Positions 32,264 through 46,587 of a stretch of 64,000 bases of DNA are shown piece after piece. The DNA comes from Halopseudomonas sabulinigri (GTDB taxonomy: Bacteria > Pseudomonadota > Gammaproteobacteria > Pseudomonadales > Pseudomonadaceae): assembly GCF_900105255.1 (NCBI RefSeq), contig NZ_LT629763.1, forward strand, positions 2,728,001 through 2,792,000. Reading direction: 5' to 3'. Each line of letters starts with the position of its first letter. Position 1 is the first letter of the stretch. The notes below the pieces were generated by a model, which was given only the letters and a program-made list of their open reading frames with translations, was not told the origin of the DNA and ran no database searches. The translations under genes and the position numbers were made by a program.

Positions 32264-32290
32264 TAACCCTTTCAACGCGGACTCAAGACT

Positions 32291-33124
32291 ATGTCTAACA
32301 GTACCAAAACCCACGCAATGGATATGAGCGCCCTGGGTCGCCCGCAGCAAGACATGAGCATGGATCAGGAAAGCATCGCGCTGGAAGTGCCTGGCCTGAG
32401 CCTGTTCTACGATACCAAGCAGGCGCTGCACAACGTCAGCATCAAGATTCCACGCAATCGCGTAACTGCCTTTATCGGTCCGTCCGGTTGCGGCAAATCC
32501 ACCCTGCTGCGCTGCTTCAACCGCATGAACGACCTGGTCGACAGCTGCCGCGTCGACGGGCAGATTCTGCTCGACGGCAAGGACATCTACGCCAAGGGCG
32601 TGAACGTGTCCGAGCTGCGCCGCCGCGTGGGTATGGTGTTCCAGAAGCCCAATCCGTTCCCCAAATCGATCTACGAAAACGTTGCCTACGGCCTGCGCAT
32701 TCAAGGCGTCAACAACAAGCGTACGCTGGATGAAGCCGTTGAATGGTCGCTCAAGGGCGCCGCGCTGTGGGATGAGGTGAAGGATCGTCTGAACGAGTCG
32801 GCCCTGGGCATGTCCGGCGGTCAACAGCAGCGTCTGGTGATCGCCCGGACCATCGCCGTGGAACCCGAAGTGCTGCTGCTGGATGAACCGGCTTCGGCGC
32901 TGGACCCGATCTCGACGCTGAAAATCGAAGAGCTGATCAACGAGCTGAAGTCGAAGTTCACCATTGTCATCGTGACCCACAACATGCAGCAGGCGGCGCG
33001 GGTATCCGACTACACTGCGTTCATGTACATGGGCGAGCTGATCGAGTTTGGTGACACCAACACCCTGTTCACCAACCCGTCGAAGAAACAGACGGAAGAC
33101 TACATCACTGGCCGCTACGGCTAA
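32291..33124 (+). CDS. pstB: Phosphate ABC transporter ATPase PstB
   Basis: A 277-residue ATPase. Motifs: Walker [22 protein letters not shown]-loop [16 protein letters not shown], signature [17 protein letters not shown], Walker [17 protein letters not shown] and switch histidine [12 protein letters not shown]. The C-terminal [16 protein letters not shown] is typical PstB. The N-terminus has about 25 extra residues ahead of the ABC core, common in Pseudomonas. 27 bases after pstA. Confidence 0.97.
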
Positions 33125-33139
33125 CCGGGGATTTTCACC

Positions 33140-33871
33140 ATGCCAGATAAAGAATTGTTTAATCAGCACATCTCCCAGCAATTCAACGCTGAGTTGGAGG
33201 AAATCCGTACCCAGCTGCTGGAGATGGGCGGTTTGGTCGAGAAGCAGATCAACGACGCCATAGTGGCGCTGATCGAAGGTGACGCCAAGCTGGCCGAGCA
33301 GGTCCGCGAAAAGGACGAGGCCATCAACCAGATGGAGCTGGATATCGACCAGGAGTGCATGCGCATTCTCGCTCGCCGCCAGCCTGCGGCCAGCGACCTG
33401 CGTCTGGTTATCAGCATCAGCAAGATCATCGTTGACCTGGAGCGCATTGGCGACGAGGCCTCCAAGATCGCCCGGCGCGCCATTGATCTGGTGGAAGCCG
33501 GTCAAGCACCCAAGGGTTACGTCGAGTGCCGCCACATCGGACATCATGTGCGCCGCATGGTGCAGGAAGCGCTCGACGCCTTTGCCCGTATGGACACCGA
33601 TCAGGCGTTCTCGGTAGCGCGCGAAGACAAGTCGGTGGATCAGGAATACAAATCGGCGATGCGCGAGATGATCACCTTCATGATGGAAGATCCACGCTCC
33701 ATCTCGCGGGTGCTCAATATCCTCTGGGTACTGCGTTCACTGGAGCGGGTGGGCGACCACGCGCGTAATGTGGCGGAGCATGTGATCTATCTGGTCAAGG
33801 GTACCGATGTGCGTCACATAGGCCTCAAGCGCATGGAAGCCGAGGTACGCAAGGACAGCGCGCCGGAGTAA
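33140..33871 (+). CDS. phoU: Phosphate signalling regulator PhoU
   Basis: A 243-residue protein of two PhoU three-helix repeats (about residues 15-110 and 115-220), with metal-contact motifs ERIGDEASKIARR and ERVGDHARNVAEH. It links the Pst transporter to PhoR and shuts off the Pho response in high phosphate. Fifteen bases after pstB, ending in a strong terminator. In P. aeruginosa the next genes are the PA5364 regulator region; here ten unrelated genes intervene. Confidence 0.96.
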   Translation: MPDKELFNQHISQQFNAELEEIRTQLLEMGGLVEKQINDAIVALIEGDAKLAEQVREKDEAINQMELDIDQECMRILARRQPAASDLRLVISISKIIVDLERIGDEASKIARRAIDLVEAGQAPKGYVECRHIGHHVRRMVQEALDAFARMDTDQAFSVAREDKSVDQEYKSAMREMITFMMEDPRSISRVLNILWVLRSLERVGDHARNVAEHVIYLVKGTDVRHIGLKRMEAEVRKDSAPE

Positions 33872-33889
33872 CCCATGCTCTGGCTGTGC

Positions 33890-33921
33890 ACAAAAAACCC
33901 GCCGAATGGCGGGTTTTTTGT
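33890..33921. terminator. Bidirectional terminator between phoU and cytochrome c-551
   Basis: A perfect 14-base stem, ACAAAAAACCCGCC (33890-33903) and GGCGGGTTTTTTGT (33908-33921), loop GAAT. A and T tracts on both sides let it serve both convergent genes. Confidence 0.92.
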
Positions 33922-33932
33922 CGGTGGCGGAC

Positions 33933-34247
33933 TCAGTTGTGGCTGAGCACCCACTCGGCCAATATCTTGGCCTCTTCGTCGGTTACCTGATTCGGTGGCA
34001 TGGGAATCGGGCCCCAGATGCCGGAGACGCCATTCTTGATATGCCCGGCGACGGTTTCGACCGCGCCGTCCTGGCCGGCGTACTTTTTGGCCACCTCGGT
34101 GTAGGCGGGGCCAACCAACTTGGTGTCGATCTGGTGGCAGGCGACACACGCCTTGCTCTTGTACAGGTCTTCACCTTCGCTGGCGAAGCCCGAGCCGGCG
34201 GCGAAAAGCGCGCTGGCGGTCAGTACCGGTAACAGTAGGCGTTTCAT
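33933..34247 (-). CDS. nirM: Cytochrome c-551 (NirM-like)
   Basis: A 104-residue monohaem cytochrome. Signal peptide at residues 1-22 (ending AAGSGFAS), then haem attachment CVACHQID, the segment [20 protein letters not shown] and axial methionine in [27 protein letters not shown]. This is very close to Pseudomonas cytochrome c-551, a periplasmic electron donor to nitrite reductase and other acceptors. No nir genes are visible here, so its partner is elsewhere. It is downstream of the ten-gene cluster on the same strand, 147 bases away, and probably has its own promoter. Confidence 0.92.
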
Positions 34248-34394
34248 AAGACAGTCCTCACGAGCTGAACGGATTAGGCAGGTTGACCTGCTTTTAATGG
34301 ACGCTTTGCGCGCGTCTTTCTGCGTTTAAACATGAACGCAAAGTGGCTACTTGGCAAGTGACGCTTTGCCACGCCCTGTTGCCGCTCGCGAGCT

Positions 34395-35072
34395 TCAGCT
34401 GAAGCTGACCTGAATCTGCGCGCCAGCGATGCTGATTTCGCCCGCTTCGGGCTGTTGCCCGGTGATTTTCTTGTTGCTCGGCGGCGCGTCCAGCGGCTCA
34501 CCGTTCTTGTCTACCGCGATGACCTCAAGGGCAAAGCGCGCTGCCAGCGCCTCTGCCTCCTCCAGCAGTTTGCCCAGCATGGCCGGCACTACGCGGATCT
34601 CGCTAGCGCGGCCGGGCGCTGGCACGGGTACGATACGGAACTGAATCTTGGCGGCGGCGCTGGCCTGAAAGCCGTACCTGTTGGTCAGGTCGGCATTCAC
34701 CGGTGCGGCGTACACCTTGGCCGCCGGCAGGCGTGGCAGAAAACGCTCGGCCAAGCTCAGCGCCTTGCTGCGAACCGCCGGCTGAGTGGCGGGCGCTGCA
34801 GTACTGGCAGTGTTGTTCTGCCCGCTGATGCTGAGGGCAACCTGAATCTCGCCGGTCGTGTCGGGCAGCGCGTAAAAGGTAGGTTGATAGCCAATCTCCT
34901 GCAGCAAACGGAGTTCTTCGCTGTCGCTGTCATGGTAGATGGCCAGCACCTGCGCCAGCGACGCGCGGTCGAGCGCTTCCTGCGCCTGGGCTACGCCCTG
35001 ACCAACCGAGGCAATGATGTCGCCAATCGGTGCGGCCATGACGTCGTGGACCAGATCTTTGATAGTGGGCAT
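34395..35072 (-). CDS. Cluster gene 10: GFTPxFY-family protein with PASTA-like C-terminus
   Basis: A 225-residue protein of unknown function. N-terminal helix motif APIGDIIASVGQGVAQAQEALDRAS (residues 14-38), then IGYQPTFYALPDTTGEIQVALSISG, a variant of the LGFTPxFY motif of its neighbours. After a low-complexity linker comes FQASAAAKIQFRIVPVPAP, matching the family's VPVPAP end. The last 60 residues (LLEEAEALAARFALEVIAV, then ITGQQPEAGEISIAGAQIQVSF) fit a PASTA-like repeat. No signal peptide. Last gene of the cluster, 53 bases after the preceding gene. Confidence 0.7.
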   Translation of the reverse strand: MPTIKDLVHDVMAAPIGDIIASVGQGVAQAQEALDRASLAQVLAIYHDSDSEELRLLQEIGYQPTFYALPDTTGEIQVALSISGQNNTASTAAPATQPAVRSKALSLAERFLPRLPAAKVYAAPVNADLTNRYGFQASAAAKIQFRIVPVPAPGRASEIRVVPAMLGKLLEEAEALAARFALEVIAVDKNGEPLDAPPSNKKITGQQPEAGEISIAGAQIQVSFS

Positions 35073-35125
35073 GGCGTGTGTCCTGTGCAGTTGGGGTTGT
35101 CAGCCGCGCGGCTGTTGGCGCGTTC

Positions 35126-36481
35126 TCAGGCTTGGGTGAAGACCACCAGCACCACCTCACCGGGCGGCAGAGTCTTGCCCTTGGCGGGTATCTGGCGGAT
35201 CGCCTGACCGACTGCTTGGGCGCTGTCGCCGATGCTCTGGTATGCCGCTTCCAGCTGCAGGCCCAGATCGCCTGCCAGACGCCTGGCGAGGGTTTCGGTC
35301 AGGTCGCTGAAATCTGGCACCGTAACCAGCGGCTCGCTGGTCTGGCTGTCGCTGCTGTCGGGCAGATACTCCAGCGCGACATCGGTAAAAATCCCGCTGC
35401 TGCCCTTGTCGATCTCGGCCAGGGTGGGCAGCGTCATGCTGTTGCCGCTCACCAGGGTTTTCAGGTTCAGCGACACCTTGCCCAGCCGATAGGGCACGCC
35501 ATCCTCGTTGAGTTTGCTCTGCGCCTGCTGCAGTTGCCGGGCGATGTTGCTGTATAGCTCGCCGGCATCCACCTGGGTTTCCATCTGGCTTTTCAGGCGT
35601 TCACTTTCCTCGCGGGCACTGGCGGCCTCTGCGGCCGCTTCACTGCGCTGCTTGCTCAGCACTTCAAGGCGTTCGGAGACCTGTGCCAACTCCAGGTTCT
35701 TTTGGTTCAGATTGCGTTGCAGGCTGGCGGTGGACAGCTCGAACTCGGTGGACTGGCGCAGAATCTGCTCGTTCAGCTGCAGCTTGATCTGGTTGGTCGC
35801 CAGCTCGATCTGCTCGCTCCCGGCAGCGGCCGGTTTGCTTTGCAACTGCTTTTCCAGCGTCTGGATTTTCAGCTGTGCCTGCTTCAGTTCGTTGCCGGTG
35901 CTTTGTTTGTCGCGCTCCAGGGTGTTGATCAGTTGCGCCTTCTGGTTCAACTCCAGCGATTGCACCTCGATCTGCTTGCTCAGATCAGCCTGCAGCTTGA
36001 GTTGATTGCTGCTGACCGGTTGTACCTGCGGCTGAGCTCTGACCACCTGCGGGTTGATACGCAGGCTGGCCATGTTCAGGGTCAGCTTGACGATTTCTTT
36101 CGGCATGCCGGCCAACAGGTAGTCGTCGGCGGCGCTGAACGGGCTGTCACGTTCGCTGCGCGCCACAGCGTTGTCACCCAGGCGTTCGATGTCGCCGTAG
36201 GACAGGCGCACCAGCTTGCCTGGCTCGACCTTGATCAGGCCACCTTCGGCCAGCACGCGGCTCGGTTGGTTGGCTTTGCTGGCTTCGCACAGACGGACGG
36301 CGGGTAGCATTTTGTCTTCGGCCAGGTCGAGCTTCAGGGCGAAGTCGCCCTTGGCGTTCAGGCTGCCTTTGGCCGCGCTGCGCCAAACCTGTCTGGCCAT
36401 GTCATAGAGTTGCAGTTCGACCTGGCCGCTGGCGGGTTTGCCGTCTGCCTCGAACACGCTACCGGTGATGCTCCATTGCAT
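35126..36481 (-). CDS. Cluster gene 9: beta-sandwich, coiled-coil and PASTA protein
   Basis: A 451-residue protein. Residues 1-100 resemble a transthyretin/carboxypeptidase-regulatory beta-sandwich (ITGSVFEADGKPASGQVELQLYD, SLNAKGDFALKLD). Residues about 160-335 are a long coiled coil rich in Gln, Glu and Leu. Residues 345-385 are beta-rich (LGKVSLNLKTLVSG). Residues about 385-451 form a PASTA domain (LVTVPDFSDLTETLARRLAGDLGL, AIRQIPAKGKTLPPGEVVLVVF). No signal peptide and no membrane helix, which is odd for a PASTA protein. The elongated layout suggests a tether or spacer. Twelve bases after gene 8. Confidence 0.75.
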   Translation of the reverse strand: MQWSITGSVFEADGKPASGQVELQLYDMARQVWRSAAKGSLNAKGDFALKLDLAEDKMLPAVRLCEASKANQPSRVLAEGGLIKVEPGKLVRLSYGDIERLGDNAVARSERDSPFSAADDYLLAGMPKEIVKLTLNMASLRINPQVVRAQPQVQPVSSNQLKLQADLSKQIEVQSLELNQKAQLINTLERDKQSTGNELKQAQLKIQTLEKQLQSKPAAAGSEQIELATNQIKLQLNEQILRQSTEFELSTASLQRNLNQKNLELAQVSERLEVLSKQRSEAAAEAASAREESERLKSQMETQVDAGELYSNIARQLQQAQSKLNEDGVPYRLGKVSLNLKTLVSGNSMTLPTLAEIDKGSSGIFTDVALEYLPDSSDSQTSEPLVTVPDFSDLTETLARRLAGDLGLQLEAAYQSIGDSAQAVGQAIRQIPAKGKTLPPGEVVLVVFTQA

Positions 36482-36493
36482 GGGAGTGTAGTC

Positions 36494-37225
36494 CTATGGG
36501 GTCAGGATTAGCTGGGTGAGGGTGGCGCCGCTGTTGATCAGCAGAACCAGATTGGCATTGGCCGGCAGGGCTTTGGTCAGGGTGGTGCCGACCAGGGCGC
36601 TGCCTTGTTGATCGGTCTGCACCAAGCGTTGCTCCAGTTGCACGGCGGTGCGCAGCTGGTCTTCGGTGAGATTGTTGGCGCCGGCGGCCTCGCTGAGTTG
36701 CAGACTGGCCAGCAGATCGAGATTCAGTTCAACCGGTGCCTCGGCGATGCGCTCACCGGCGCTGTTGCTGAGTTCGATCAACACTTCGCGGTGCAGTGGG
36801 CTGGCGGCGTCGGGCACGCGCTCGCGGGCGCTGATACGCAGGGTCGGCAGGCTGTTGCTGGGCGGTACCGACACCAGCCGGCCACTGAAGGTGCTGGTCA
36901 GTTCGGTGGAACCGCTGCCGGCTTCATTGCTGCGTTTGAGGTCGGGCAGCTGCAATTTCAGTTGCGGGATGCGACTGGCCTTGATGGCGCTGGTGCGCAG
37001 GTTGCGCACCGCTGCTGCGGGTTCCTGCTCGCTGGGCAGGCTGGCCTGCACCGTTGCCTTGATGCTGAAGTCGAGGTAGGGCAGGTGGTAGCTACTTTGC
37101 GGCCGCCCGAAGGCGTCGGTCGGCGGAATGTCATCCAGCACCGCCTGGGCGTCGCGCAGGCCGCGCGCCAGCCCCAGCAGTATTTGCTCGATCGAGCCGC
37201 TGACGAAGTCACTGGAGTTGCTCAT
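36494..37225 (-). CDS. Cluster gene 8: divergent GFTPxFY-family protein
   Basis: A 243-residue protein of unknown function. The N-terminal helix SGSIEQILLGLARGLRDAQAVLDD (residues 9-32) corresponds to the family helix of genes 3-6. It is followed by YLDFSIKATVQASLP in place of the LGFTPxFY strand region and by FSGRLVSVPPSNSLPTLRIS, a version of the RLVPVPAP end. A further 110 residues, mostly beta-strand and short helix, have no motif I recognise. No signal peptide. Only two bases separate it from gene 7, so the genes are translated together. Confidence 0.65.
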   Translation of the reverse strand: MSNSSDFVSGSIEQILLGLARGLRDAQAVLDDIPPTDAFGRPQSSYHLPYLDFSIKATVQASLPSEQEPAAAVRNLRTSAIKASRIPQLKLQLPDLKRSNEAGSGSTELTSTFSGRLVSVPPSNSLPTLRISARERVPDAASPLHREVLIELSNSAGERIAEAPVELNLDLLASLQLSEAAGANNLTEDQLRTAVQLEQRLVQTDQQGSALVGTTLTKALPANANLVLLINSGATLTQLILTP

Positions 37226-37227
37226 AA

Positions 37228-37998
37228 TTAGTCGGTACTCAGTTGTGGGCGTTGGCTGCGGCGTTCGGCGGCACGTTGCTGCAGCAGGTCCTGCTGGCGC
37301 TCGGCGCGGCGTGCTTCGCGGCGCTGTTCTAGCCGCCGCTCCTGCGCCTGTTCGCGGCGCTGCGCCAATTGTTCAAGCGGCCCGGTTTCGACCCCGAGCA
37401 GTCTGCGTTGACGCTGCGCGTAGCGATCGTCAAAGCTTGGCAGGCTGGTTGGCTCGCGCAGGGCTGGCGGGCTAGCGGCTGTACCGTCAAAGGCCGTATT
37501 CAGGCGGTCGGTGAGCGGCCGCAGGAGCGGCTCGCGCAGGGTTTCGCTGCGCTCCTGTTGCAGCCGGGACAAGGCATTGCTGCGCGCCTGTGCCACGCGC
37601 TGATCCAGCCGCTGCGTCAGGTTCACCTGTCCCAGTTGCTGACGGGCGGCGGCGTCCCTGGCCTGGGCTACCTGACCATCGCGCGCCTGCCACCATTGCT
37701 GCAGCGGCGTGCTGTCTGTTGCAGGTGCGCTGTGCTGCTGGGCCCGCCGCCGCTCCCAATCAGCCTGCTCGGCGCGGCGGTCAGCGCTGCTGGCTACCGG
37801 GTAAACGCGGCTGGCAGAGCCTTCCTGCGGCTGACCGCCCAGCGCGCGCATTTGCTGTTCGAGCGTCTCGCGCTGTTGCAGCAGACGCTGCAGGCCGGGC
37901 ACCTGTGCGCTGAGTTGGCCAAGGCTGGCCGCTGGCGGGCTGGCGGAGCCACTGCCAGCCTGTTGGCGGGCCAGGTCGCGCCAGGTCTTGCGGCTCAT
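37228..37998 (-). CDS. Cluster gene 7: Arg/Gln-rich helical protein
   Basis: A 256-residue strongly basic protein, rich in Arg, Gln and Ala, predicted to be mostly helix and coiled coil (residues 35-55, 95-160 and 190-250). The C-terminal 50 residues are almost wholly RREARRAERQQ-type repeats. No family is recognised. It may bind nucleic acid or act as a scaffold; this is a guess from composition. Its ATG overlaps the stop of gene 6 (ATGA), which is strong support that it is translated. Confidence 0.65.
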   Translation of the reverse strand: MSRKTWRDLARQQAGSGSASPPAASLGQLSAQVPGLQRLLQQRETLEQQMRALGGQPQEGSASRVYPVASSADRRAEQADWERRRAQQHSAPATDSTPLQQWWQARDGQVAQARDAAARQQLGQVNLTQRLDQRVAQARSNALSRLQQERSETLREPLLRPLTDRLNTAFDGTAASPPALREPTSLPSFDDRYAQRQRRLLGVETGPLEQLAQRREQAQERRLEQRREARRAERQQDLLQQRAAERRSQRPQLSTD

Positions 37999-38519
37999 TC
38001 CTCGGCCTCCAGCAGGGCGCGAATGCGTTCCTCCAGCACCGCCGGCGCAGGGACGGGTACCAGCTTGGTGCGCATGACCGAGCTGCCTTCGGCCGAGTAC
38101 TGATACTTGCTGGCATAGCTGGCGCTGACCGAGCTGGCGCTGACCGATCCTGCCGCGAAGAAAGGCAGGCCCACGCCCTTGGCGCTGGCTTTTACCTGGG
38201 TGCGTTTGTAGGTAGAACTGCGCTCACTGTTGATGCTGATGGACAGCTTCAGCTCGATTACGGTATCCACAAACTGGTAGAAACTGGGGGTAAAACCCAG
38301 TTCCAGCAGGCTGTAGGACTTGCCGTTGCTGAACTCGACCTTGTAGGGCGCGTCCGGCGTGTCTTCGTCTTCATCACTGCCGGTGGCGAAACCGGCCATC
38401 ATGCGCGCGATCTGCAGTGAGACCAGGTCCAGTTCAAGTTGGGCTTCGGCAATACCGACGCCCATGTTGCGCACAATCAGTGGAAAGGGCGCATTCAATA
38501 GTTCTGTGCCAACACTCAT
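37995..38519 (-). CDS. Cluster gene 6: GFTPxFY-family protein (compact form)
   Basis: A 174-residue protein and a clean example of the cluster's family. N-terminal helix APFPLIVRNMGVGIAEAQLELDLVS (residues 9-33), an acidic loop (about 45-58), SLLELGFTPSFYQFVDTVIELKLSIS (about 70-95), an SSYKRTQ-type polar stretch, then SYASKYQYSAEGSSVMRTKLVPVPAPAVLEERIRALL to near the C-terminus. Very similar to gene 5 (shared KYxYSAEGSS, RTKL, LEERIR). No signal peptide. Function unknown; likely a beta-rich subunit that pairs with its paralogues. Confidence 0.75.
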   Translation of the reverse strand: MSVGTELLNAPFPLIVRNMGVGIAEAQLELDLVSLQIARMMAGFATGSDEDEDTPDAPYKVEFSNGKSYSLLELGFTPSFYQFVDTVIELKLSISINSERSSTYKRTQVKASAKGVGLPFFAAGSVSASSVSASYASKYQYSAEGSSVMRTKLVPVPAPAVLEERIRALLEAEE

Positions 38520-38543
38520 GGTGCTAGTCCTCCGTCAGCGCGG

Positions 38544-39245
38544 TTATTCGTCAACCGGTTCAGCCGGTTGGCGGCGAGCCTCAGCGGCTTCCATCATGCT
38601 GCGGATGCGTTCTTCGAGAATCGGCGGTGGCGGCACGGGTGAGAGCTTGGTGCGCAACAGGCTGGAGCCTTCGGCCGAGTAGGAATACTTGGAGGAGTAG
38701 CTGGCGTCGACCTGGCTGGTGGACACCGTCGAGGAGGATTTGTCCTTGCCACCAAAAATCTTGCCGAACACGCCGCTGCCCTTCTTGCTGTTGCTGTTAC
38801 GGGTGGTCTTGTTGCTGCTGGTACGGCCGTATTCCGAGGTGCGGGTGATCTTGATCGCGATCTTCACCTCGATGATGGTATCGACGAAGTTGTAGAACAC
38901 CGGGGTAAAGCCCAGCTCCAGCATGGACAGGCGAGTGGGTACGCGAATCTGGCCATCTTCGGTCTGGAATTTCTTGGCCGCGGCGACGATCTCGGTATAG
39001 CCCTTGTCGGTAGCAGCCAAACTGTCGGCTTCGGCAGGCGTCATGTATTCGTGGCCGAAGAAGATGCGGCTATCATCAAAGGTAATGTTGCCGTCGTCGT
39101 CGTAGATGGTGCGCAGGCCGCCCATCATTTCCGCCACCTCGATCGAACTTTCATCCAGCTTTACCTGGGCCTCGGCGATGGCGAAGGCCATCTGGCGAAT
39201 CATGTCCCCCATGGGGACGTTCAGCAGTTCCTGTCCAATACTCAT
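38544..39245 (-). CDS. Cluster gene 5: GFTPxFY-family protein (long loop form)
   Basis: A 233-residue paralogue of gene 6. N-terminal helix VPMGDMIRQMAFAIAEAQVKLDESS (residues 9-33), an extra acidic segment (about 45-90), SMLELGFTPVFYNFVDTIIEVKIAIKI, a Ser/Lys-rich insert with KGSGVFGKIFGGKDK, then SYSSKYSYSAEGSSLLRTKLSPVPPPPILEERIRSMM. Start at 39245 with AAGGAG upstream; the frame is open to 39425 but the family motif begins right after this ATG. 24 bases precede gene 6. Cytoplasmic by prediction. Confidence 0.75.
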   Translation of the reverse strand: MSIGQELLNVPMGDMIRQMAFAIAEAQVKLDESSIEVAEMMGGLRTIYDDDGNITFDDSRIFFGHEYMTPAEADSLAATDKGYTEIVAAAKKFQTEDGQIRVPTRLSMLELGFTPVFYNFVDTIIEVKIAIKITRTSEYGRTSSNKTTRNSNSKKGSGVFGKIFGGKDKSSSTVSTSQVDASYSSKYSYSAEGSSLLRTKLSPVPPPPILEERIRSMMEAAEARRQPAEPVDE

Positions 39246-39276
39246 TGTGATGCTCCTTTCAATAGGCAGTCGCCAA

Positions 39277-39756
39277 TCAGCTGTTTGCTCCGGGCAGACC
39301 CTCGTCGTAGAGGCGCCGCAGGACTTCGTTGAGGGCTTCGGGGGCGGGCAGCGATACCAGGCGTGCGGCAATCGAACTCGACCCTTCGGCGGATACCGAA
39401 AATTTTCGCGCGTAGGACACATCAACGCTGGCGGCCACCATGACCACGCCGTAGTTGACCTTGGCGGTCACCCCGGCCGAGACCGAGGTTTCCGTGGTTT
39501 CCGTCATACTGAACGAGAGCTTGGCTTCCACCGTGGCTTCGGTGAACGCATAGAAGCTGGGCGTGAAGCCCAGGGTCAGCAGGTTGTAGGTTTCGCCGCC
39601 CAACTCCACCGGCGTCTCGGCCATGCTTTTGGCCACGGCCACCGAGTTGGCGTCGAGCGCCGACTGCGCCTGGGCGATGGCGACGCCCAGGCGCTCGATG
39701 ATCTGCGGCAGCGGGGCACTGACCAGCGAGCGGGTAACACTGACGGTCTCGCTCAT
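39277..39756 (-). CDS. Cluster gene 4: GFTPxFY-family protein (minimal form)
   Basis: A 159-residue protein that best defines the minimal module: APLPQIIERLGVAIAQAQSALDANS (residues 14-38), NLLTLGFTPSFYAFTEATVEAKLSFS (about 57-82), a beta-rich middle, then SYARKFSVSAEGSSSIAARLVSLPAPEALNEVLRRL. It shares its C-terminal half with gene 3 (SSISARLVSIPAP) and its N-terminal half with genes 5 and 6. Three bases after gene 3, 31 before gene 5. Function unknown. Confidence 0.75.
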   Translation of the reverse strand: MSETVSVTRSLVSAPLPQIIERLGVAIAQAQSALDANSVAVAKSMAETPVELGGETYNLLTLGFTPSFYAFTEATVEAKLSFSMTETTETSVSAGVTAKVNYGVVMVAASVDVSYARKFSVSAEGSSSIAARLVSLPAPEALNEVLRRLYDEGLPGANS

Positions 39757-39759
39757 GGT

Positions 39760-41484
39760 CTAGTCCCTCAGGTAGCTGCGAATGGTGTCGAGAAATTCCG
39801 GCGGTGCCGGGATGGACACCAGGCGCGCCGAGATAGACGAATTGCCCGTGACATCCAGCTCGAATTGCCGCGCATGGCGCACATCCAGGGTGGCGCCAAA
39901 GGCCACTGTGCTGTTGCCGGTGCGGCGAGTGGTTTCGCGCTCGCTGCTACTGTTGGCGAACTGCTCGCTGATGGTGATGCTTTCACTGCTGGTCATGCGC
40001 AGGTCGCGGCTCGAGGTACTGATCAGGTGCAACTGCACCGGGTCGCTCCTGCGTGCCAGGTTGCAGACTGCGCCACCGGCGGAAGCGCTGATCTGGCTGT
40101 CGCTGTCGGCGTTGATGCTGTTGGCCAGGTTTTTCGCGAAGGCTTGCGGGCTATCGGCAGCAAGGCCTTCGACAGCCGCGCCGGACAGCGTCCAGCTGCG
40201 GCCTTCGGCGGTCACCTGCTTGCCGTTCACACCGCTCATGTCGTTGGCGTCGAAGGTGTGAATCCAACCGTTGCTGGCAGGCTCCGAATGATCACGCCGG
40301 TCCGGCTCCACGCCGCTGATCACCTGGCCGTTGGCCCCCTGGATAACCAGCAGGTCAACATCCAGCAGAATCTGTACGCGGCGATGCGCCTGGTCATGGG
40401 GGATACCCTCCGCGCCACCGGGATTGGCCGCCGCCTCGCCCTCGGCAACCGACGCGGTAATCTGCGCCGGATCAACGCCATTGGCGATCAGTTGGCGACG
40501 CACCTCATCGACGCGGCGCTGCGACAACGCCAGGTTGTAGCCGGGGCTGGCGGGTGCATCGGCATGCCCGACCAGGCGAAAGGGCAGGCCGGCGCGGGCC
40601 AGCATTTGCGCGGTTTCCTGCAGCTCGTCACGTTGGTCGGCGCGGATGGCGTTGCGGTCGATGTCGAACAGCACTTCGTGTATCGCCTCACCCGGGGGCC
40701 AATGGGTCACGCTGTAACCGGCATCGGTAAAGGCGGTTTTTACCTTGCGCGCGTAGTTGCCGACGCTGTTGGAGCGGGTGACGGCGAGGCTGGTATCGGG
40801 GTTGGCAACGAAGGTGGTATCGCTGTTGCTGGCGATACGAATTACCCCGCCGGCATAGCCGAAGGCGCGAAAGGCCACGGCATTGGGCGACACTATGACC
40901 TGCCGCGGGCTGGCGTCGGTGGTGGGGTTGATTGGCGTTTCGTTGCGCTCAAACGCGACCGCGGTAATGTCGGCATTGCCCGCCAGACCATCGACCAGGC
41001 TGCTCAGGCGGCTGTCCAGATCCGGCCCGCTGACGGCCACACGGCTGTCGTTGATGCGCACTTCGCCGGCCGAGCGCGCGGTGATCTGCAGACTGGCTTC
41101 GCGGTTACGGGTTTCACTGCGGCTGCCGCTACTACTGCTGGAAGAGCTGCTTTCGCTGTCGTCATTGCTGGTTTCGGCATTGTTGTAGGCGCCGTTGATG
41201 CCGAAATCGACCCCGGTCGACTCTTCCACGCGCAGATGCAGATTCATTGAACAGGTGATGTCGGCGTGCTGATAGTGATAAAAGGCCGGGCTGAAGCCCA
41301 TTTCGATCAATGTCTTGCCACCCAAGCCGGGAATCGGCTGAATGAAGCTGTCGAGCTGCTCAATCGAGTTGGTGTCCAGCGCCTGCTGCGCGCGGGCGAT
41401 GCCCAGACCCAGGCTGGAGATGAAATCGGCGACACTGGCGTCTGCCAGTATCTCGCCGGGACGCAGACCGTTGTAATCGCTCAT
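39760..41484 (-). CDS. Cluster gene 3: GFTPxFY-family protein with an inserted OmpA-like domain
   Basis: A 574-residue protein. Residues 10-85 are the family N-terminal half (DFISSLGLGIARAQQALDTNS, LIEMGFSPAFYHYQHADI). A Ser-rich linker and two beta-rich stretches follow. Residues about 265-375 form an OmpA-type peptidoglycan-binding domain (VLFDIDRNAIRADQRDEL, LVGHADAPASPGYNLALSQRRVDEV with the conserved Asp and Arg, HRRVQILLDV). The family C-terminal half (LDVRHARQFELDVTGNSSISARLVSIPAP) closes the protein. There is no signal peptide, lipobox or membrane helix, so how the OmpA domain would meet peptidoglycan is unclear. Twelve bases after gene 2. Confidence 0.78.
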   Translation of the reverse strand: MSDYNGLRPGEILADASVADFISSLGLGIARAQQALDTNSIEQLDSFIQPIPGLGGKTLIEMGFSPAFYHYQHADITCSMNLHLRVEESTGVDFGINGAYNNAETSNDDSESSSSSSSSGSRSETRNREASLQITARSAGEVRINDSRVAVSGPDLDSRLSSLVDGLAGNADITAVAFERNETPINPTTDASPRQVIVSPNAVAFRAFGYAGGVIRIASNSDTTFVANPDTSLAVTRSNSVGNYARKVKTAFTDAGYSVTHWPPGEAIHEVLFDIDRNAIRADQRDELQETAQMLARAGLPFRLVGHADAPASPGYNLALSQRRVDEVRRQLIANGVDPAQITASVAEGEAAANPGGAEGIPHDQAHRRVQILLDVDLLVIQGANGQVISGVEPDRRDHSEPASNGWIHTFDANDMSGVNGKQVTAEGRSWTLSGAAVEGLAADSPQAFAKNLANSINADSDSQISASAGGAVCNLARRSDPVQLHLISTSSRDLRMTSSESITISEQFANSSSERETTRRTGNSTVAFGATLDVRHARQFELDVTGNSSISARLVSIPAPPEFLDTIRSYLRD

Positions 41485-41496
41485 GCCACACTCCTG

Positions 41497-42075
41497 CTAA
41501 AAGGGGATCGCCGCACGGGTGCCTTGCAGGCGCTCGGGCGGCAGGGGGATCGCACGCGCCGGGTCAACCAGCGCCTTGCGCACAATGAAATACTGGTGTC
41601 GCTGCTGGGCGTCGCCCAGTTGGCGGCTGCCGACCGTGAGGCCCCGCTGGTGCCAGCCGGTAAGCTCGCGTGCCAGTGGCAAGCGGTCGGGGGCGGCGAG
41701 CTGCTGCGCCTGCTCGAAACTCGACATGGCCGCATCCAGCTGCTGCAGGCGCAGCAGAATGCAGCCGCGCCGCTGCAGGTTTTCTGCTCGGTCACGGCGT
41801 ACCAGCGGCAGGCTGTCAGTCAGGCGCTGGTAGTGTTGTTCGGCTTCGTCGCAGTAGCGCAGCACGGCGTCGAGCTCGCCGCTCAGCTCCAGGCTTTCCA
41901 TCACGCATTGGGTGTAATGGCGGAAAAATACCTCGGGTGACCGGCTGCTGACGGCTAGCCGCAGCGCTTCGCGATAATGCTCCAGCGCGGCCTGATGTTT
42001 ACCCTTCAGGGCCAGCAGCTTGCCTTGCTCGGCGATGCCCAGATGCAGCTTCAGGCTTTGCTCAGTGGCGGCCAT
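41497..42075 (-). CDS. Cluster gene 2: TPR protein
   Basis: A 192-residue helical protein with tetratricopeptide-like repeats, for example KGKHQAALEHYREALRLA (about residues 24-41), GELDAVLRYCDEAEQHYQRL (about 64-84) and LQQLDAAMSSFEQAQQLA (about 106-123). TPRs usually mediate protein contacts, so a chaperone or adaptor role for the cluster's assembly is plausible, not shown. Its ATG overlaps the end of gene 1 by 14 bases, coupling their translation. Confidence 0.75.
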   Translation of the reverse strand: MAATEQSLKLHLGIAEQGKLLALKGKHQAALEHYREALRLAVSSRSPEVFFRHYTQCVMESLELSGELDAVLRYCDEAEQHYQRLTDSLPLVRRDRAENLQRRGCILLRLQQLDAAMSSFEQAQQLAAPDRLPLARELTGWHQRGLTVGSRQLGDAQQRHQYFIVRKALVDPARAIPLPPERLQGTRAAIPF

Positions 42076-43177
42076 CGTCCATTTCCTCCCAGCTGTGCTC
42101 TATGCCCAGTTGCTCCAGTGCCTGTTGCAGCCAGCGCGGCATCAGCTCGCCGTAGATCACCGGCGAGCGCCAGGGCAGCGGAAGGCGGGTTTGGCTGTGC
42201 TCCACCAGGCCGGCTTGCGCCAGCAGCGGCAGGGCGACATCGGCATTGCCGCCGACGGTGAGTGCCAGACGGCACTGGCGCAGGGTAACCGGCACGGCCT
42301 GCACCGGTAGCTTGGCGCTGCGCCAGGCCGCAAGCCGGCTATCGAGGTTCTGGGCGGCGACGCCTTCCTCGACCACCACCGGCAGGTTGGCCAGCACGCA
42401 ATCAATCAGCTCGGCCGGCAGGCCGGCAAGCCTGGGCAACTGGCTGGTGTCACTATCGGCTTGCAGTGCGCCGAGGCTCAGGTCATAGCGCATGAAGGTC
42501 AGGTCGAGCAGGCGGATGCCGCCGGCCGACTGATGCCGGCGCCACAGGTACAGTGCCTGGCGGGTGTCGATGGCCTGAAGCACCTCGCAGCTGTCCGGGT
42601 CGTACCGAATGCCCTGCTGGTGCAGGTCATGCAACAGGCTATCTAGCCCGGGGCCGGGTGCGCGGTTGATCAGCAGCTGATAGCGCGCCTCGGCGCGGGT
42701 TGAGCAGCTAAGCTCCACCTCAAGATCGGCCAGATGGCGCTGCAGCGCCTGCGCCGTCGCCTCGCTGACGTCCCCCAGTACCACGCCGGGTGGGGTGAGC
42801 AGCATGTTCAGTGCCGCCTCGGGCCGGCAGCCGAGAAAGTGCGCGAGGCGCTGGCAGCACTCTGGCAGCTGCGCGATGTTGCGCACATAGAGGGCGATGT
42901 CCAGCGTCTTACCCGGTTGCGGGCGGGGTGTGTCGGACGCTTCCAGGCGAATATGCAGGCCGGCCTGCTGCAGAATGCTGGCCAGCCCCTCGGCCTGTGC
43001 GGGTGGCAGGTCTTCAAGCAGCACCGAGGGCGCGCGGTAGAGCGCATTGGCCACGCGGCTGGCAGGCAAACCCAGCTGCCGCGCGAGCAGGCCAGCGAGG
43101 CCGGGCTGCGCGGAGCCGACCGATTCGACGACGACCCGCTGAGCACTGGTCAGGTGGGGATGAATGGATGCGTCCAT
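42062..43177 (-). CDS. Cluster gene 1: protein with two L7/L12 C-terminal-like repeats
   Basis: A 371-residue protein of unknown function. Residues about 14-80 (LLARQLGLPASRVANALYRA, VLLEDLPPAQAEGLASILQQAGLHIRLE) and about 91-158 (RLAHFLGCRPEAALNMLLTP, GVVLGDVSEATAQALQRHLADLEVEL) follow the pattern of the ribosomal protein L7/L12 C-terminal domain (helix-helix-P-x-V-hairpin-AExxxxxLexAG-strand). The remaining 210 residues are not recognised. First gene of the cluster; the start at 43177 has a strong TAAGGAGA nine bases upstream. No signal peptide. Confidence 0.7.
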   Translation of the reverse strand: MDASIHPHLTSAQRVVVESVGSAQPGLAGLLARQLGLPASRVANALYRAPSVLLEDLPPAQAEGLASILQQAGLHIRLEASDTPRPQPGKTLDIALYVRNIAQLPECCQRLAHFLGCRPEAALNMLLTPPGVVLGDVSEATAQALQRHLADLEVELSCSTRAEARYQLLINRAPGPGLDSLLHDLHQQGIRYDPDSCEVLQAIDTRQALYLWRRHQSAGGIRLLDLTFMRYDLSLGALQADSDTSQLPRLAGLPAELIDCVLANLPVVVEEGVAAQNLDSRLAAWRSAKLPVQAVPVTLRQCRLALTVGGNADVALPLLAQAGLVEHSQTRLPLPWRSPVIYGELMPRWLQQALEQLGIEHSWEEMDDGRH

Positions 43178-43627
43178 GGCGAGGTCTCCTTAAGTCCGCA
43201 GCACGTGTACAGAGCACGCGCCCTCGAGCGGGAAATGGGTGTCGGGTCTTGGCAGGTGTGAAGCCGTATGGCGGTGTGAGATGGCCGGAGCGCCAGAGGC
43301 TGCGTTAACACGGGAAGGCGCGGCTTCGGCAGGCGTGACAGCGGCGCCGCCAACGTGCGCGGCGGGATGCTCATCGCAACGGGATAAGCGCAGTACAGGG
43401 GCTGCGCCGGTATTGTTGGACTTCGCCAAAACCCACACCTCCGTGTCGGGAATCGACGACAGCGACGCGGGTCAGGCGTCCGACGATCAAAAAGGAAAAT
43501 TACCGCTCGCAGATCAACATAGTTCAGCGCAAAAAACTGTCAATGGTGGCCCTTTGCTGCGAAGCTGCTGGGGTTTTTGTGCCGCTCTACGCTAAGCTAG
43601 GGGCAATATTCGAGGAACCGTAAAACC
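43178..43627. other. 450-base intergenic region between the ten-gene cluster and the response regulator
   Basis: No convincing gene. The left 330 bases would be an untranslated leader of the cluster if transcription starts at the promoter described at 43516-43543. It contains short GC-rich inverted segments but no riboswitch or hairpin-T terminator I recognise. The right end carries GAGGA for the response regulator. Short frames on the minus strand (43150-43438) lack ribosome sites and look non-coding. Confidence 0.5.
43516..43543 (-). promoter_or_regulatory. Candidate sigma-70 promoter for the ten-gene cluster
   Basis: On the minus strand TTGACA (43543-43538), a 16-base spacer and TATGTT (43521-43516). 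The -35 is consensus and the -10 matches 4 of 6. It points at gene 1, about 330 bases away; I found no closer match by eye. Confidence 0.45.
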
Positions 43628-44533
43628 ATGGCAAAAGTGTCTGTGCTGATTGTTGATGACGCCCCCTTTATCCGCGATCTGGTGAAGAAGGCGCTGCGTA
43701 GCCACTTCCCGGGCTTGCAGATCGAGGAAGCGATCAATGGTCGCAAGGCCCAGCAGATGCTCTCGCGCAGCAGTTTTGATCTGATCCTTTGCGACTGGGA
43801 GATGCCGGAAATGGGTGGTCTTGAGTTGCTCCAGTGGTTTCGGGGCCAGCCGGGTATGGAGGCCATTCCCTTCATCATGGTGACCAGCCGTGGTGACAAG
43901 GAGAACGTGGTTGAAGCGATTCAGTCGGGTGTGAGTGATTACGTTGGCAAGCCTTTCACTAATGAACAGCTGCTCGCCAAGGTCAAAAAGGCGTTGCAGC
44001 GCGCCGGCAAGCTGGCGAAGTTGCAGGGCCCGCAAGCGCCGCGTCCGAGTGTTGGTACGGCGCAGGACTCTATCGCCAATCTGACCGGCGGTCGGAAAGT
44101 CGAAGCGCCGGCTGCGCCAGCGCGTCCCGCCGCTCCCGCAAAGCCAGCGGAAGCGCCGGCTGCGACCAAGGCACCCGCGGCGGCCAGCGCGCAATCGGTG
44201 CGTGGCCAGGCGCAGCTGCGTTTGGCCGGTCAGCAGTTTGCCTGCGTGATCAAGACCCTTAGCCTGCGCGATGCGCTGGTGGTGGTGCGCCGTAGTGAGC
44301 GCCTGCCGCAACTGTTTGAAAGTGGTGTGCTGGATCTGGAGCAGGACAGCGATCAGAGCGTCGCGCGCATCAATGCCTACGTCCACGCGGTGGCCGCGCT
44401 GGAGCCAAAGATGGACTCGGAGTGGGTTCGGGTGACGCTGAAATTTGTCGATCAGGATCCGGACAAACTCAACTACCTGTCACGGCTGATCGCTTCGGGT
44501 ACCGCGCAGCAGCATTACAGCCCCGGCGCCTGA
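43628..44533 (+). CDS. CheY-like response regulator with C-terminal PilZ-like domain (PA5364-type)
   Basis: A 301-residue protein. The receiver domain (residues 1-120) has D10, D11, phosphoacceptor D56 (LCDWEMP), T86 and K108 (GKPF), all in place. A Pro/Ala-rich linker spans about 140-190. The C-terminal domain (195-300: VRGQAQLRLAGQQFACVIKTLSLRDALVVV, ending KLNYLSRLI) has a PilZ-like strand pattern but no clear RxxxR, so c-di-GMP binding is uncertain. In P. aeruginosa the equivalent lies between phoU and phoR. No sensor kinase is adjacent. Convergent with phoR, six bases between stops. Confidence 0.8.
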   Translation: MAKVSVLIVDDAPFIRDLVKKALRSHFPGLQIEEAINGRKAQQMLSRSSFDLILCDWEMPEMGGLELLQWFRGQPGMEAIPFIMVTSRGDKENVVEAIQSGVSDYVGKPFTNEQLLAKVKKALQRAGKLAKLQGPQAPRPSVGTAQDSIANLTGGRKVEAPAAPARPAAPAKPAEAPAATKAPAAASAQSVRGQAQLRLAGQQFACVIKTLSLRDALVVVRRSERLPQLFESGVLDLEQDSDQSVARINAYVHAVAALEPKMDSEWVRVTLKFVDQDPDKLNYLSRLIASGTAQQHYSPGA

Positions 44534-44539
44534 CGCCGT

Positions 44540-45832
44540 TCAGGGACGACGTTTGGCCGGGAAGTGGCAGATGAAAGTGCTGCCTTCACCTGCCTTGCTG
44601 AGAATTTCCAGCCGGCCCTGATGGCGTAGCAGCACATGCTTGACGATGGCCAGACCCAGACCGGTGCCGCCGGTATTGGTGCTGCGGCTTGAATCGACCC
44701 GGTAGAAGCGCTCGGTCAAACGGTTGATATGCTGGGGCGCAATGCCCACGCCGTTGTCCTTGACCGCCAGGTGCTGGCCCTTGTCGTCACTCCACCAGTG
44801 CAGCTCAATGTCACCCTGTTCCGGGGTGTACTTCACCGCGTTGAACGCCAGGTTGGAAAATGCGCTGCGCAGCTCGCCTTCCACGCCCTGCAGTCGGGTG
44901 TTGCCGTCTATTTGCAGACTGATGTGATGGCGTTGCTCGCCAGACAGCGATTGGGCGTCCTTGCGGATACTTTCCAGCATGGGCGCAACGTCGACGTTTT
45001 CGTCTTCGCTGGTGTGGTCGGAGGTTTCCAGGCGGGCGAGAAGCAGCAGGTCGTTGAGCAGGCTTTGCATGCGGTTTGACTGCTGTTGCATCTGCTGTAG
45101 CGGCCGCTTCCAGCGCGGGTTCATCTGCTCTTCACTGTCGAGCAGGGTCTCTACATAGCCGACCACCACCGTCAGCGGCGTTCGCAGCTCATGGGAGACG
45201 TTCGCCACAAAATCTTTGCGCATTTGCTCAAGATTGTGCAGCCGCGTAACGTCGCGCACGACCATCAAACGATCCCCTGGCCCATAGCGGGTGACGGCAT
45301 ACTGCAGCTGGGTGTTGAGGTCTATTGGCGAATGAATTTCCAGCGGTTCGCGAAAGTCGCCATGCTCAAAATACTCGATAAAGCGTGGGTCGCGAATCAG
45401 GTTGTTCACGTGCTGGCCGCTGTCGTCCGGGGTACGCAGCCCGAGCAGGCGCTCGGCAGCGTGGTTCCACCACTCCAGGTGGCCGTCCTTGTCGATCATC
45501 ACCACCGCGTCGCGCAGTGCCGAGGTGGAAGACTGGATACGATCAATCACCGCCTGCAGGCGCGCGCGCATGCGCCCGTCACGCCGTTGCAGGTGGTAGA
45601 TGCTGTCGAAGATTTCGCCCCAGACGCCCTTGGCTTCGGGTGGTGGCTCGTTTGGGTGGGTGCTGAGCCACTCATAGAAGCGCGACATCTGACGCAACGT
45701 CCAGGCCAGATAGAAGCCCAGGCCTAAGACCAGGGTCCAGGCGGGTTGCTCGATGATCCAGCCAATCAGCAGACAGGCCAGCACCAGCAGTAGCAGCTGC
45801 CCCAGGACCCGACTGAAACTGTTTTTACTCAC
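44540..45832 (-). CDS. phoR: Phosphate-regulon sensor histidine kinase PhoR
   Basis: A 430-residue membrane kinase. Two helices at residues 8-45, a charged linker, a PAS domain (about 95-195: AVVMIDKDGHLEWWNHAAERLLGL), the HisKA dimerisation motif FVANVSHELRTPLTVVVGYVETL with the phosphorylated histidine, and an ATPase domain with NLAFNAVKYTPEQGDI, DNGVGI and STNTGGTGLGLAIVKHVL. It phosphorylates PhoB under low phosphate and is held inactive through Pst-PhoU. 65 bases after phoB. Confidence 0.96.
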   Translation of the reverse strand: MSKNSFSRVLGQLLLLVLACLLIGWIIEQPAWTLVLGLGFYLAWTLRQMSRFYEWLSTHPNEPPPEAKGVWGEIFDSIYHLQRRDGRMRARLQAVIDRIQSSTSALRDAVVMIDKDGHLEWWNHAAERLLGLRTPDDSGQHVNNLIRDPRFIEYFEHGDFREPLEIHSPIDLNTQLQYAVTRYGPGDRLMVVRDVTRLHNLEQMRKDFVANVSHELRTPLTVVVGYVETLLDSEEQMNPRWKRPLQQMQQQSNRMQSLLNDLLLLARLETSDHTSEDENVDVAPMLESIRKDAQSLSGEQRHHISLQIDGNTRLQGVEGELRSAFSNLAFNAVKYTPEQGDIELHWWSDDKGQHLAVKDNGVGIAPQHINRLTERFYRVDSSRSTNTGGTGLGLAIVKHVLLRHQGRLEILSKAGEGSTFICHFPAKRRP

Positions 45833-45897
45833 AGGCGCTCCCCAGATTCAGCTACTTCTACATGCTTTTGCGCGTGAGCTGCAATGGCACGCTGCCC

Positions 45898-46587
45898 TCA
45901 GGCCTTGGTCGAGAATCGATAACCGGTGCCGCGCACGGTTTGTACCAGATGCTCGTAGTTGCTGCCAAGCGCCTTGCGCAGACGCCGAATGTGCACATCG
46001 ACGGTACGCTCTTCAACGTACACATTGCCGCCCCAGACCTGATCAAGCAACTGCCCGCGGGTGTAGGCACGTTCCTGGTGGGTCATGAAGAACTGCAGCA
46101 GGCGATATTCGGTGGGGCCCATTTCGGCGGCGCTGTCGTCGATGGTGACGCGGTGGCTGACCGGGTCCAGGTGCAGGCCGGCAACCTCGATGGGGGCTTC
46201 GCTGTCGACCGGGCCGGCGCGGCGCAGCACGGCCTTGAGCCGGGCGACCAGTTCACGCGGGGAAAAGGGCTTGGTGATGTAATCGTCGGCGCCGACTTCC
46301 AGGCCCTGGATCTTGTTGTCCTCTTCGCCCTTGGCGGTGAGCATGATGATCGGAATGTCCGTGGTCATCTCATCGCGCTTGAGGCGGCGCGCCAGTTCGA
46401 TGCCGGTGGTGCCGGGCAACATCCAGTCGAGCAGGATCAGGTCCGGCTTGCAGTCAATGATGCTGGCGTGGGCCTGTTGGGTGTTTTCGGCTTCGAGGCA
46501 GTCGTAGCCTGCCATTTCCAGTGCAACCGCGATCATTTCGCGGATTGGAGCTTCGTCATCGACGATCAGAATGGTTTTGCCTGACAT
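45898..46587 (-). CDS. phoB: Phosphate-regulon response regulator PhoB
   Basis: A 229-residue OmpR-type activator. The receiver has D10, D11 and phosphoacceptor D54 ([10 protein letters not shown]). The winged-helix DNA-binding domain (about 130-229) has [27 protein letters not shown] and [12 protein letters not shown], then GTGYRFS. It activates pstS and other genes through Pho boxes such as those at 27.1 kb. A probable own Pho box lies upstream (46637-46658), implying autoregulation. Confidence 0.97.

Follow-up and report, generated by a model that had tools for sequence, protein, structure and literature searches.

Closest described systems and the ten-gene cassette

Tailocins, extracellular contractile injection systems and gene-transfer agents (GTAs) bear a likeness, by analogy only, to the operon g01-g10 described here, a cassette of ten genes at positions 34395-43177 on the minus strand of a 64,000-nucleotide window (NZ_LT629763.1, positions 2,728,001 to 2,792,000) from the single-contig, 4.03 Mb genome of Halopseudomonas sabulinigri. 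The likeness lies in the absence of a visible export signal, a fibre-like variable part, a wall-binding domain, an endolysin-type neighbour and, in one genome, a GTA-type holin, whereas no match to a sheath, tube, spike, AAA+ ATPase, capsid or terminase connects the cassette with these particles. Two uncharacterised families, DUF2589 (PF11655) and Trypco2 (PF19631), resemble parts of its proteins in profile comparisons. Trypco2 is named in PMC7159879 as the trypsin-co-occurring domain of VMAP ternary conflict systems, but the trypsin, MoxR, vWA and VMAP domains of those systems are absent from the ten cassette genes. Judged from sequence comparison, the product of the cassette is probably a protein assembly that interacts with the cell wall of the bacterium.

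The original prediction for this locus had proposed a tight ten-gene operon that fits no known secretion, phage-tail, gas-vesicle or microcompartment system. All ten genes are present in the open reading frame (ORF) list, and no profile in Pfam, NCBIfam or PHROGs, or for defence in PADLOC, places them. Sequence profiles of the first three libraries revealed no sheath, tube, spike or baseplate in the ten genes, the only overlaps with tail or secretion families being those of the OmpA domain with TssL and of the coiled coil with a tape-measure family (E 0.003); a distant likeness at the level of structure is possible all the same. Capsid, portal and terminase had no PHROGs match, GvpA and the BMC shell domain had no Pfam match at E up to 1, and in PADLOC the g09 coiled-coil region alone matched (LmuB, JetC), at E 5e-4 or weaker. 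Searching PDB by sequence returned nothing for A2, A3 or g09; xylanase matches of g01 were weak (E 0.086 or more) and were taken as chance. AlphaFold monomers were poor (mean pLDDT 61.0 for g06 and 67.9 for g04, the beta region being unresolved), with confidence limited to helices and a short g04 hairpin, and Foldseek against PDB yielded no fold, its best hit (E 4.8) being meaningless. An origin from a phage, plasmid or prophage was rejected: relatives of the g04-g06 query A1 were not confirmed in viral contigs, g06 had no relatives in phages, and a single weak plasmid match was found. The open-licence PMC literature searched, a scope that excludes subscription papers and preprints, holds no description of the cassette. 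Several domains are known, whereas none of these library, structure and literature searches places the system itself.

Gene order, distribution and transfer

A one-genome-per-species scan with A1 (19 sequences, g04-g06) returned 246 pattern stretches, among which 167 relatives were confirmed and 80 loci (L numbers below) were kept, with phyla taken from record titles. Iterated profiles run over the 6108 mechanical ORFs of these loci found the g01 family in 73, g02 in 75, g07 in 78 and g09 in 75 loci, and the order g01 g02 P P P P g07 P g09 P, where P stands for a paralogue, is exact in 58. Six further loci keep this order but end in an additional paralogue or g09-like gene, or have g07 or g09 split, for a total of 64/80; the remaining 16 end at contig boundaries or are partial or divergent. 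Counted in this way, the order is retained in 48/55 loci of Pseudomonadota, 12/16 of Bacteroidota, 2/2 of Gemmatimonadota, 1/1 of Verrucomicrobiota and 1/1 of Balneolota. Besides these five phyla, five more (Latescibacterota, Acidobacteriota, Actinomycetota, Chloroflexota, and Planctomycetota) contribute single loci with cut, partial or divergent sets, and L110 (Anaerolineales) differs in gene order. Loci outside Pseudomonadota and Bacteroidota come from records titled as metagenome-assembled genomes (MAGs), which may be misbinned, whereas L108, from Fluviicola chungangensis of Bacteroidota, is not such a record.

As a check on its proposal of one system, the original prediction had asked whether the ten families occur together in distant taxa; the order in 64 of the 80 loci bears this out, and most genes match no characterised system. 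The same order, kept across five phyla, refutes the view that unrelated ordinary genes happen to lie together, for which we found nothing in favour and which retains practically no probability. That the cassette is more than a chance grouping also follows from the three pairs listed, in which every one of the ten genes has a lower dN than dS, at a dS near saturation.

Within the genus, all ten genes occur in 7 of 36 other genomes besides that of the window, and 0/21 other genomes of the order carry the cassette. Across 398 genomes of the phylum, a paralogue profile matched the window's own genome and no other. In a quick concatenated tree (75 rows, LG+G4, with composition and long-branch warnings), the window's nearest named relative is L040, labelled H. 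sabulinigri. Rows of Latescibacterota and Gemmatimonadota fall together among Halomonas rows, and rhodobacter-type rows stand beside Oceanospirillaceae and Saccharospirillum. Because the tree groups rows of distant taxa in this manner, it suggests that the cassette was passed partly by horizontal transfer, with misbinning as the alternative for the MAG rows. A separate case is L107 (CP034120.1, 216314-236796), titled Glaciecola amylolytica, whose cassette lies among the Fluviicola-type rows (L104-L108) with downstream ORFs of near-equal size; this may be a mislabelled record or a transferred region.

An all-against-all BLAST of the flanks, evaluated for the 25 largest groups, revealed no conserved neighbour beyond those of close relatives or one genus, generic domains and an extra paralogue. 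A conserved eleventh gene was consequently rejected, the largest neighbour group (21 loci) being judged to represent generic two-component domains. An extra paralogue gene lies past g10 in two divergent loci (L083:14213-15142 and L109:14799-15755). In Neptuniibacter (L117:14265-15677), the cassette is followed by a 471-aa protein lacking a Pfam match at E up to 0.01, and L118 has a protein of 476 aa at the same place.

Six position-specific paralogues

Four clear and two divergent members of one family had been recognised by reading the sequence, and profile-profile comparison, done on window columns, upholds all six (g03-g06, g08, and g10). Both halves of g03 as well as g05, g06 and g10 match g04, g06 and the g10 N-domain at 96%-100%, save for the g03 C half against g10 (82.8%); against g04, the two halves of g03 reach 99.9% (N) and 98.7% (C). 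The more divergent g08 matches g04 at 61.1%, besides its higher values for g06 and g10 (Table 1), compared with at most 0.8% for the non-paralogue controls g01, g02 and g07. The stretch 300-382 of g09 resembles g06 (70.1%) and g04 (64.9%) and may therefore be a further, distant copy of the paralogue fold.

For 386 of the 394 copies from outside the genus, the best-scoring profile is that of the position which the copy holds in its operon, a count that excludes six genus loci and six unsure loci (L068, L073, L076, L091, L093, and L110). This holds for every copy of g04, g05 and g06 (68/68 each), g08 (64/64) and g10 (58/58) and for 60/68 copies of g03, the eight exceptions being g03 copies that all belong to the eleven without a detected OmpA-like region. 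The six paralogues are hence older than the spread of the cassette, and their ancient, position-specific nature fits a complex of fixed, non-interchangeable subunits. The core members also evolve slowly: identity of g04-g06 in seven genus relatives is 80%-99%, with g04 the best conserved of the ten genes in most genus pairs. In the two farthest genus relatives, g01, g07, g08 and g09 drop to 43%-56% and g03 to 67%-68%. Self-assembly, as the original prediction had proposed, would be consistent with six fixed, position-specific and strongly conserved paralogues, which point to it indirectly.

Domain content and variable tips

The L7/L12-like repeats of g01, the TPR of g02 and the PASTA domain of g09 named in the earlier parts list were all confirmed, although that list had missed the OmpA insert of g03, the PASTA-like stretch of g10, whose Pfam match falls just below the cut-off (22.9 vs 23.2 bits), and the Trypco2-like domain of g09. 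The four L7/L12-CTD-like repeats of g01, which include two strong ones, align at 88.7%, 86.5%, 62.2% and 35.6% (89.0% in the profile comparison on window columns), and ribosomal L7/L12 reaches at most 0.6% with the other cassette families (hhalign). For g04-g08, no Pfam matches were obtained at E up to 1; NCBIfam and PHROGs added solely OmpA-type (g03), coiled-coil-type (g09) and weak sub-threshold matches, such as that of g04 to LppK (E 5.5e-5, 23.2 bits vs a cut-off of 125).

Surfaces and peptidoglycan are the usual targets of laminin-G, PASTA and OmpA-like domains. The OmpA-like region is present in 69/80 g03 copies, that of the window included, and is absent or replaced in 11, among them L091, L110 and L114, where g03 is unsure or cut. 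In L083 and L109, which also belong to the 11, a 560-aa g03 carries an insert unmatched by any Pfam model, and the g09 copy of L110 has six Laminin_G_3 stretches ahead of the coiled coil.

The claimed lack of signal peptides and membrane helices is weakly supported, since export signals were judged by a hydropathy window alone. The highest 19-residue Kyte-Doolittle mean in the cassette is 1.59 (g01), as against 2.81 for PstA and 1.74 for the adjacent cytochrome, whose start is signal-like, but the predicted holin of L083 (1.59) scored no higher than g01.

Peptidoglycan hydrolases beside the cassette

Together with the OmpA insert, the lead most relevant to function is that peptidoglycan hydrolases flank the cassette in other genomes; the original prediction had overlooked both. 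Among 112 flanking ORFs scanned with Pfam, out of 133 chosen, Amidase_2 was the commonest family (6/112), alongside PG_binding_1 (3) and SH3_3 (3). Amidase_2 genes lie downstream of g10 in L045, L046, L047, L119 and L084 (the last with two, one at 25.8 bits vs a cut-off of 26) and upstream of the cassette in L100. Two of the three PG_binding_1 ORFs were traced to L057, combined with a sub-threshold CHAP, and L082, combined with M15_4. L096 has M74 with PG_binding_1, and L083 encodes GH108 with PG_binding_3 followed by a GTA_holin_3TM protein, the one holin seen. Five loci (L048, L051, L088, L092, and L044) were added by phmmer with the adjacent hydrolases as seeds; as these seeds were chosen for adjacency, the result means only that homologues are not scattered through the flanks. 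In L044, of the same genus (contig of G032), the gene ends 17 bases ahead of g01, with a weak match (E 8.6e-5) and a CHAP-like part by eye. An odd fusion of Amidase_2 with a CobU domain in one ORF was noticed in L046:13928-14962 and L047:13894-15000.

Altogether, a hydrolase stands beside the cassette in 15/79 loci (L073 not counted), all matches listed being at most 1.6 kb away, 13 on the operon strand and 2 (L057, L092) on the opposite one. Five unrelated hydrolase types are involved, but not all lineages are independent (L046-L048, L045/L051, L082/L088, L057/L092, and L084/L119). The window genome contains 2 Amidase_2 and 0 CHAP matches in its 4.03 Mb; therefore, chance adjacency this often looks unlikely, taking these counts as the baseline. 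The recurrence of non-homologous hydrolases beside the same cassette suggests a function involving wall cutting. A hydrophobic start is absent from the 12 hydrolases checked with the hydropathy window, and the lack of visible export signals in cassette and hydrolases, together with the predicted holin of L083, is reminiscent of phage-type lysis or release.

Such neighbours could also be read in other ways. If the hydrolase were a payload delivered to rivals, as in some secretion systems, the cassette would be an antibacterial weapon; unrelated hydrolases at similar places and varying binding tips agree with this, but an immunity gene or delivery ATPase was not recognised, no search having been aimed at either, and 64/79 loci show no adjacent hydrolase, which together make a weapon improbable. 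Alternatively, the cassette might form a scaffold or organelle resident in the cell, such as an envelope-linked assembly with a cytoskeletal or storage role, in which the hydrolase would remodel the wall without anything being released. Purifying selection, the PASTA and OmpA domains with their fit to wall contact, and the failure of the weak hydropathy test to detect an export signal accord with such a scaffold. It is nevertheless unlikely, given that the adjacent hydrolases resemble phage endolysins without a hydrophobic start, that L083 encodes a predicted holin, and that presence is rare and patchy (1/398 phylum genomes, the window's own).

Remote relatives and conflict systems

The six paralogues appear to be remote relatives of DUF2589, a homology detected by profile. 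In profile-profile alignments, DUF2589 matches g05 at 91.3% (42 columns), g04 at 89.2% (144), g06 at 74.6% (155) and the N half of g03 at 64.7%, with weak values for g08 (31.3%) and the g10 N-domain (32.4%), in contrast to 0.2% for the g03 C half and 0.1% for the controls g01, g02 and g07. An iterated g04 profile directly matches two DUF2589 proteins (E 2.7e-5 and 3.9e-4). By hmmscan, the six window paralogues had no match to PF11655 at E up to 1, and 65 relatives of g06 matched 10 families in all (E up to 0.1), DUF2589 not being one of them.

DUF2589 proteins were collected from 7 genomes (1/143 and 6/299 searched). Their loci have two copies side by side in 5/7 and a hydrolase-type neighbour in 3/7, namely Amidase_3 (L136), GH19 (L137) and DUF922 (L138), but none has a g01, g07 or g09 match at E up to 0.01, and a single weak g02 (TPR) match lies 5 kb away in L138. 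A 115-aa neighbour of the DUF2589 gene in L139 is M15-like by eye, with no convincing Pfam match. Proteins between or beside DUF2589 genes in L122:7424-8242 and L139:7354-8028 have, by eye, this layout with an insert and match no Pfam family. On a plasmid of Sphaerotilus sulfidivorans (L140:8992-11422), a reduced variant annotated as hypothetical genes combines two paralogues, a g09-C-like protein and a coiled-coil protein (by eye), all adjacent, although it comprises only four genes as against ten.

The Trypco2-like domain of g09 (~307-375) aligns over 68-70/77 columns at 87.8%-93.5% in two profile-profile set-ups, while a Pfam search of g09 itself gives no PF19631 match at E up to 1; the Trypco2 and DUF2589 profiles do not match each other (0.3%). 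As the nearest relative of this domain comes from VMAP ternary conflict systems, and another system in PMC7159879 has lysozyme-type and peptidoglycan-peptidase domains as likely effectors, the cassette could be a conflict or abortive-infection system, in which the complex would sense an invader via its adaptor domains and the adjacent hydrolase would damage the wall, so that the cell dies. A sporadic distribution, partly horizontal as the tree suggests, would suit this scenario. Against it stand the absence of any PADLOC match in the ten genes save the g09 coiled-coil overlap, the slow evolution of g04-g06, and the many loci that show no adjacent hydrolase (64/79). Moreover, the 112 flanking ORFs contain just 7 PADLOC families with one member each, no NTPase, peptidase or nucleotide enzyme was recognised in the ten genes, and no trypsin, MoxR or vWA family is among the 25 commonest of 127 families in the flanks of other loci. 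We consider a conflict system unlikely on balance, although it ranks ahead of the resident scaffold.

Gene layout and boundaries of the cassette

The gene calls and gaps of the original prediction agree with ours except for the start of g05, which by homology is the ATG at 39245 (233 aa) and not the TTG at 39425 of the ORF list. The close packing it described is reflected in intergenic distances of -14, 12, 3, 31, 24, -4, 2, 12 and 53 bases from g01 to g10 (Table 1).

Table 1. Features of the cassette region, in window coordinates
Feature	Position	Strand	Basis
g01, 371 aa, L7/L12-CTD-like repeats, adaptor-like	42062..43177	-	hhalign to ribosomal L7/L12
g02, 192 aa, TPR protein	41497..42075	-	Pfam TPR_2, E 1.9e-8
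g03, 574 aa, paralogue domain split by an insert with an OmpA-like domain	39760..41484	-	OmpA, E 3.7e-14, residues 272-355
g04, 159 aa, core paralogue	39277..39756	-	88%-99% identity in seven genus relatives
g05, 233 aa, core paralogue	38544..39245	-	Genus identity, profile comparison
g06, 174 aa, core paralogue	37995..38519	-	Profile comparison
g07, 256 aa, Arg/Gln-rich by eye	37228..37998	-	Family in 78/80 loci; profile of biased composition
g08, 243 aa, divergent paralogue	36494..37225	-	98.6% to g06, 94.9% to g10 N-domain
g09, 451 aa, variable N-part, coiled-coil-type middle, Trypco2-like domain (~307-375), PASTA (386-448)	35126..36481	-	PASTA, E 1.1e-6
g10, 225 aa, divergent paralogue domain and C-terminal PASTA-like stretch	34395..35072	-	N-domain 99.8% to g04
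Whole cassette as discrete insertion	34374..43536	-	Flanks near-contiguous in sister genome G013 (L175)
Candidate operon promoter TTGACA-16-TATGTT at cassette edge	43516..43543	-	Consensus scan, 10/12

The cassette is one conserved unit that is present or absent as a block. In the sister genome G013 (L175), which has no cassette match in the genus scan, the sequences corresponding to window 32106-34373 and 43537-45999 are separated by 161 bases (blastn), marking an empty site. A promoter scan of the region gave 3 sites vs 1.1 (sd 1.2) in shuffles, a hint that the site at the cassette edge could be the operon promoter.

Named by eye, the flanks comprise a cytochrome-like gene beside phoU and a response-regulator-type gene beside phoR. 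Where the contig extends, genus carriers have the same pst/phoU and response-regulator genes as flanks, and in several of them additional sequence separates g10 from the cytochrome gene. The response-regulator-type gene (window 43628-44533), divergent from the cassette, has a match in 37/37 genus genomes, including the window's own, irrespective of the presence of the cassette, and is therefore part of the site and not of the system.

Proposed function of the cassette

The reading that we place first, tentatively and a little short of even confidence, is that of a cytoplasm-built hetero-oligomer with exchangeable binding tips, working with a lysis-type wall hydrolase. After it we rank the conflict system, the resident scaffold and finally the hydrolase payload. 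The lysis-like signs favour a cytoplasm-built complex acting at or through the wall, and further support comes from the kept order, the discrete insertion, the position-specific paralogues, the slow evolution of g04-g06, the variable tips, the adjacent hydrolases and the hydrolase-type neighbours in 3/7 DUF2589 loci. In the proposed mechanism, six different subunits of one DUF2589-like fold, each at a fixed place, would be assembled in the cytoplasm. g03 with its OmpA insert and g09 with its exchangeable N-part, coiled coil, Trypco2-like and PASTA domains may serve as tip or anchor parts binding peptidoglycan or a surface, and g01, g02 and g07 as adaptors, scaffold or assembly factors. The assembly would act at or across the wall with a peptidoglycan hydrolase that is adjacent in some genomes and presumably encoded elsewhere in others, its most likely role being release of the assembly or its passage through the wall. 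Cytoplasmic location, particle assembly, hydrolase role, release and target are all inferred here.

Several observations weigh against this view. No adjacent hydrolase was found with these seeds in 64 of 79 loci, and none lies near the window cassette by reading; the neighbours tested in the other 4/7 DUF2589 loci likewise gave no hydrolase. A capsid, tube, sheath, ATPase or secretion gene was not recognised in the ten genes, the predicted holin occurs in L083 only, the hydropathy test for export signals is weak, and neither the poor AlphaFold models nor Foldseek point to a PDB fold. PASTA and OmpA-like domains can have other roles. Archaeoglobus, moreover, is an archaeon without murein. A DUF2589 region in this genus is reported in PMC3949148, the one paper of the open-licence literature searched in which DUF2589 turned up.

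A bolder interpretation, possible but with doubt prevailing, is that the cassette represents a separate class of lysis-linked or wall-crossing nanomachine not derived from phage tails, built from six subunits of a DUF2589 superfamily, equipped with exchangeable tips (OmpA, PASTA, and laminin-G) and passed among phyla as a ten-gene cassette, with DUF2589 operons as its simpler relatives. It is unusual for an almost unannotated block of ten genes to keep its order in several phyla, and the sharp boundaries, the empty site and named environmental carriers such as Halopseudomonas pachastrellae JCM 12285 (L043) make the cassette directly testable. If a particle is built, it would add a further class of bacterial nanomachine to the tail-derived ones and open a first way to study the uncharacterised families DUF2589 and Trypco2.

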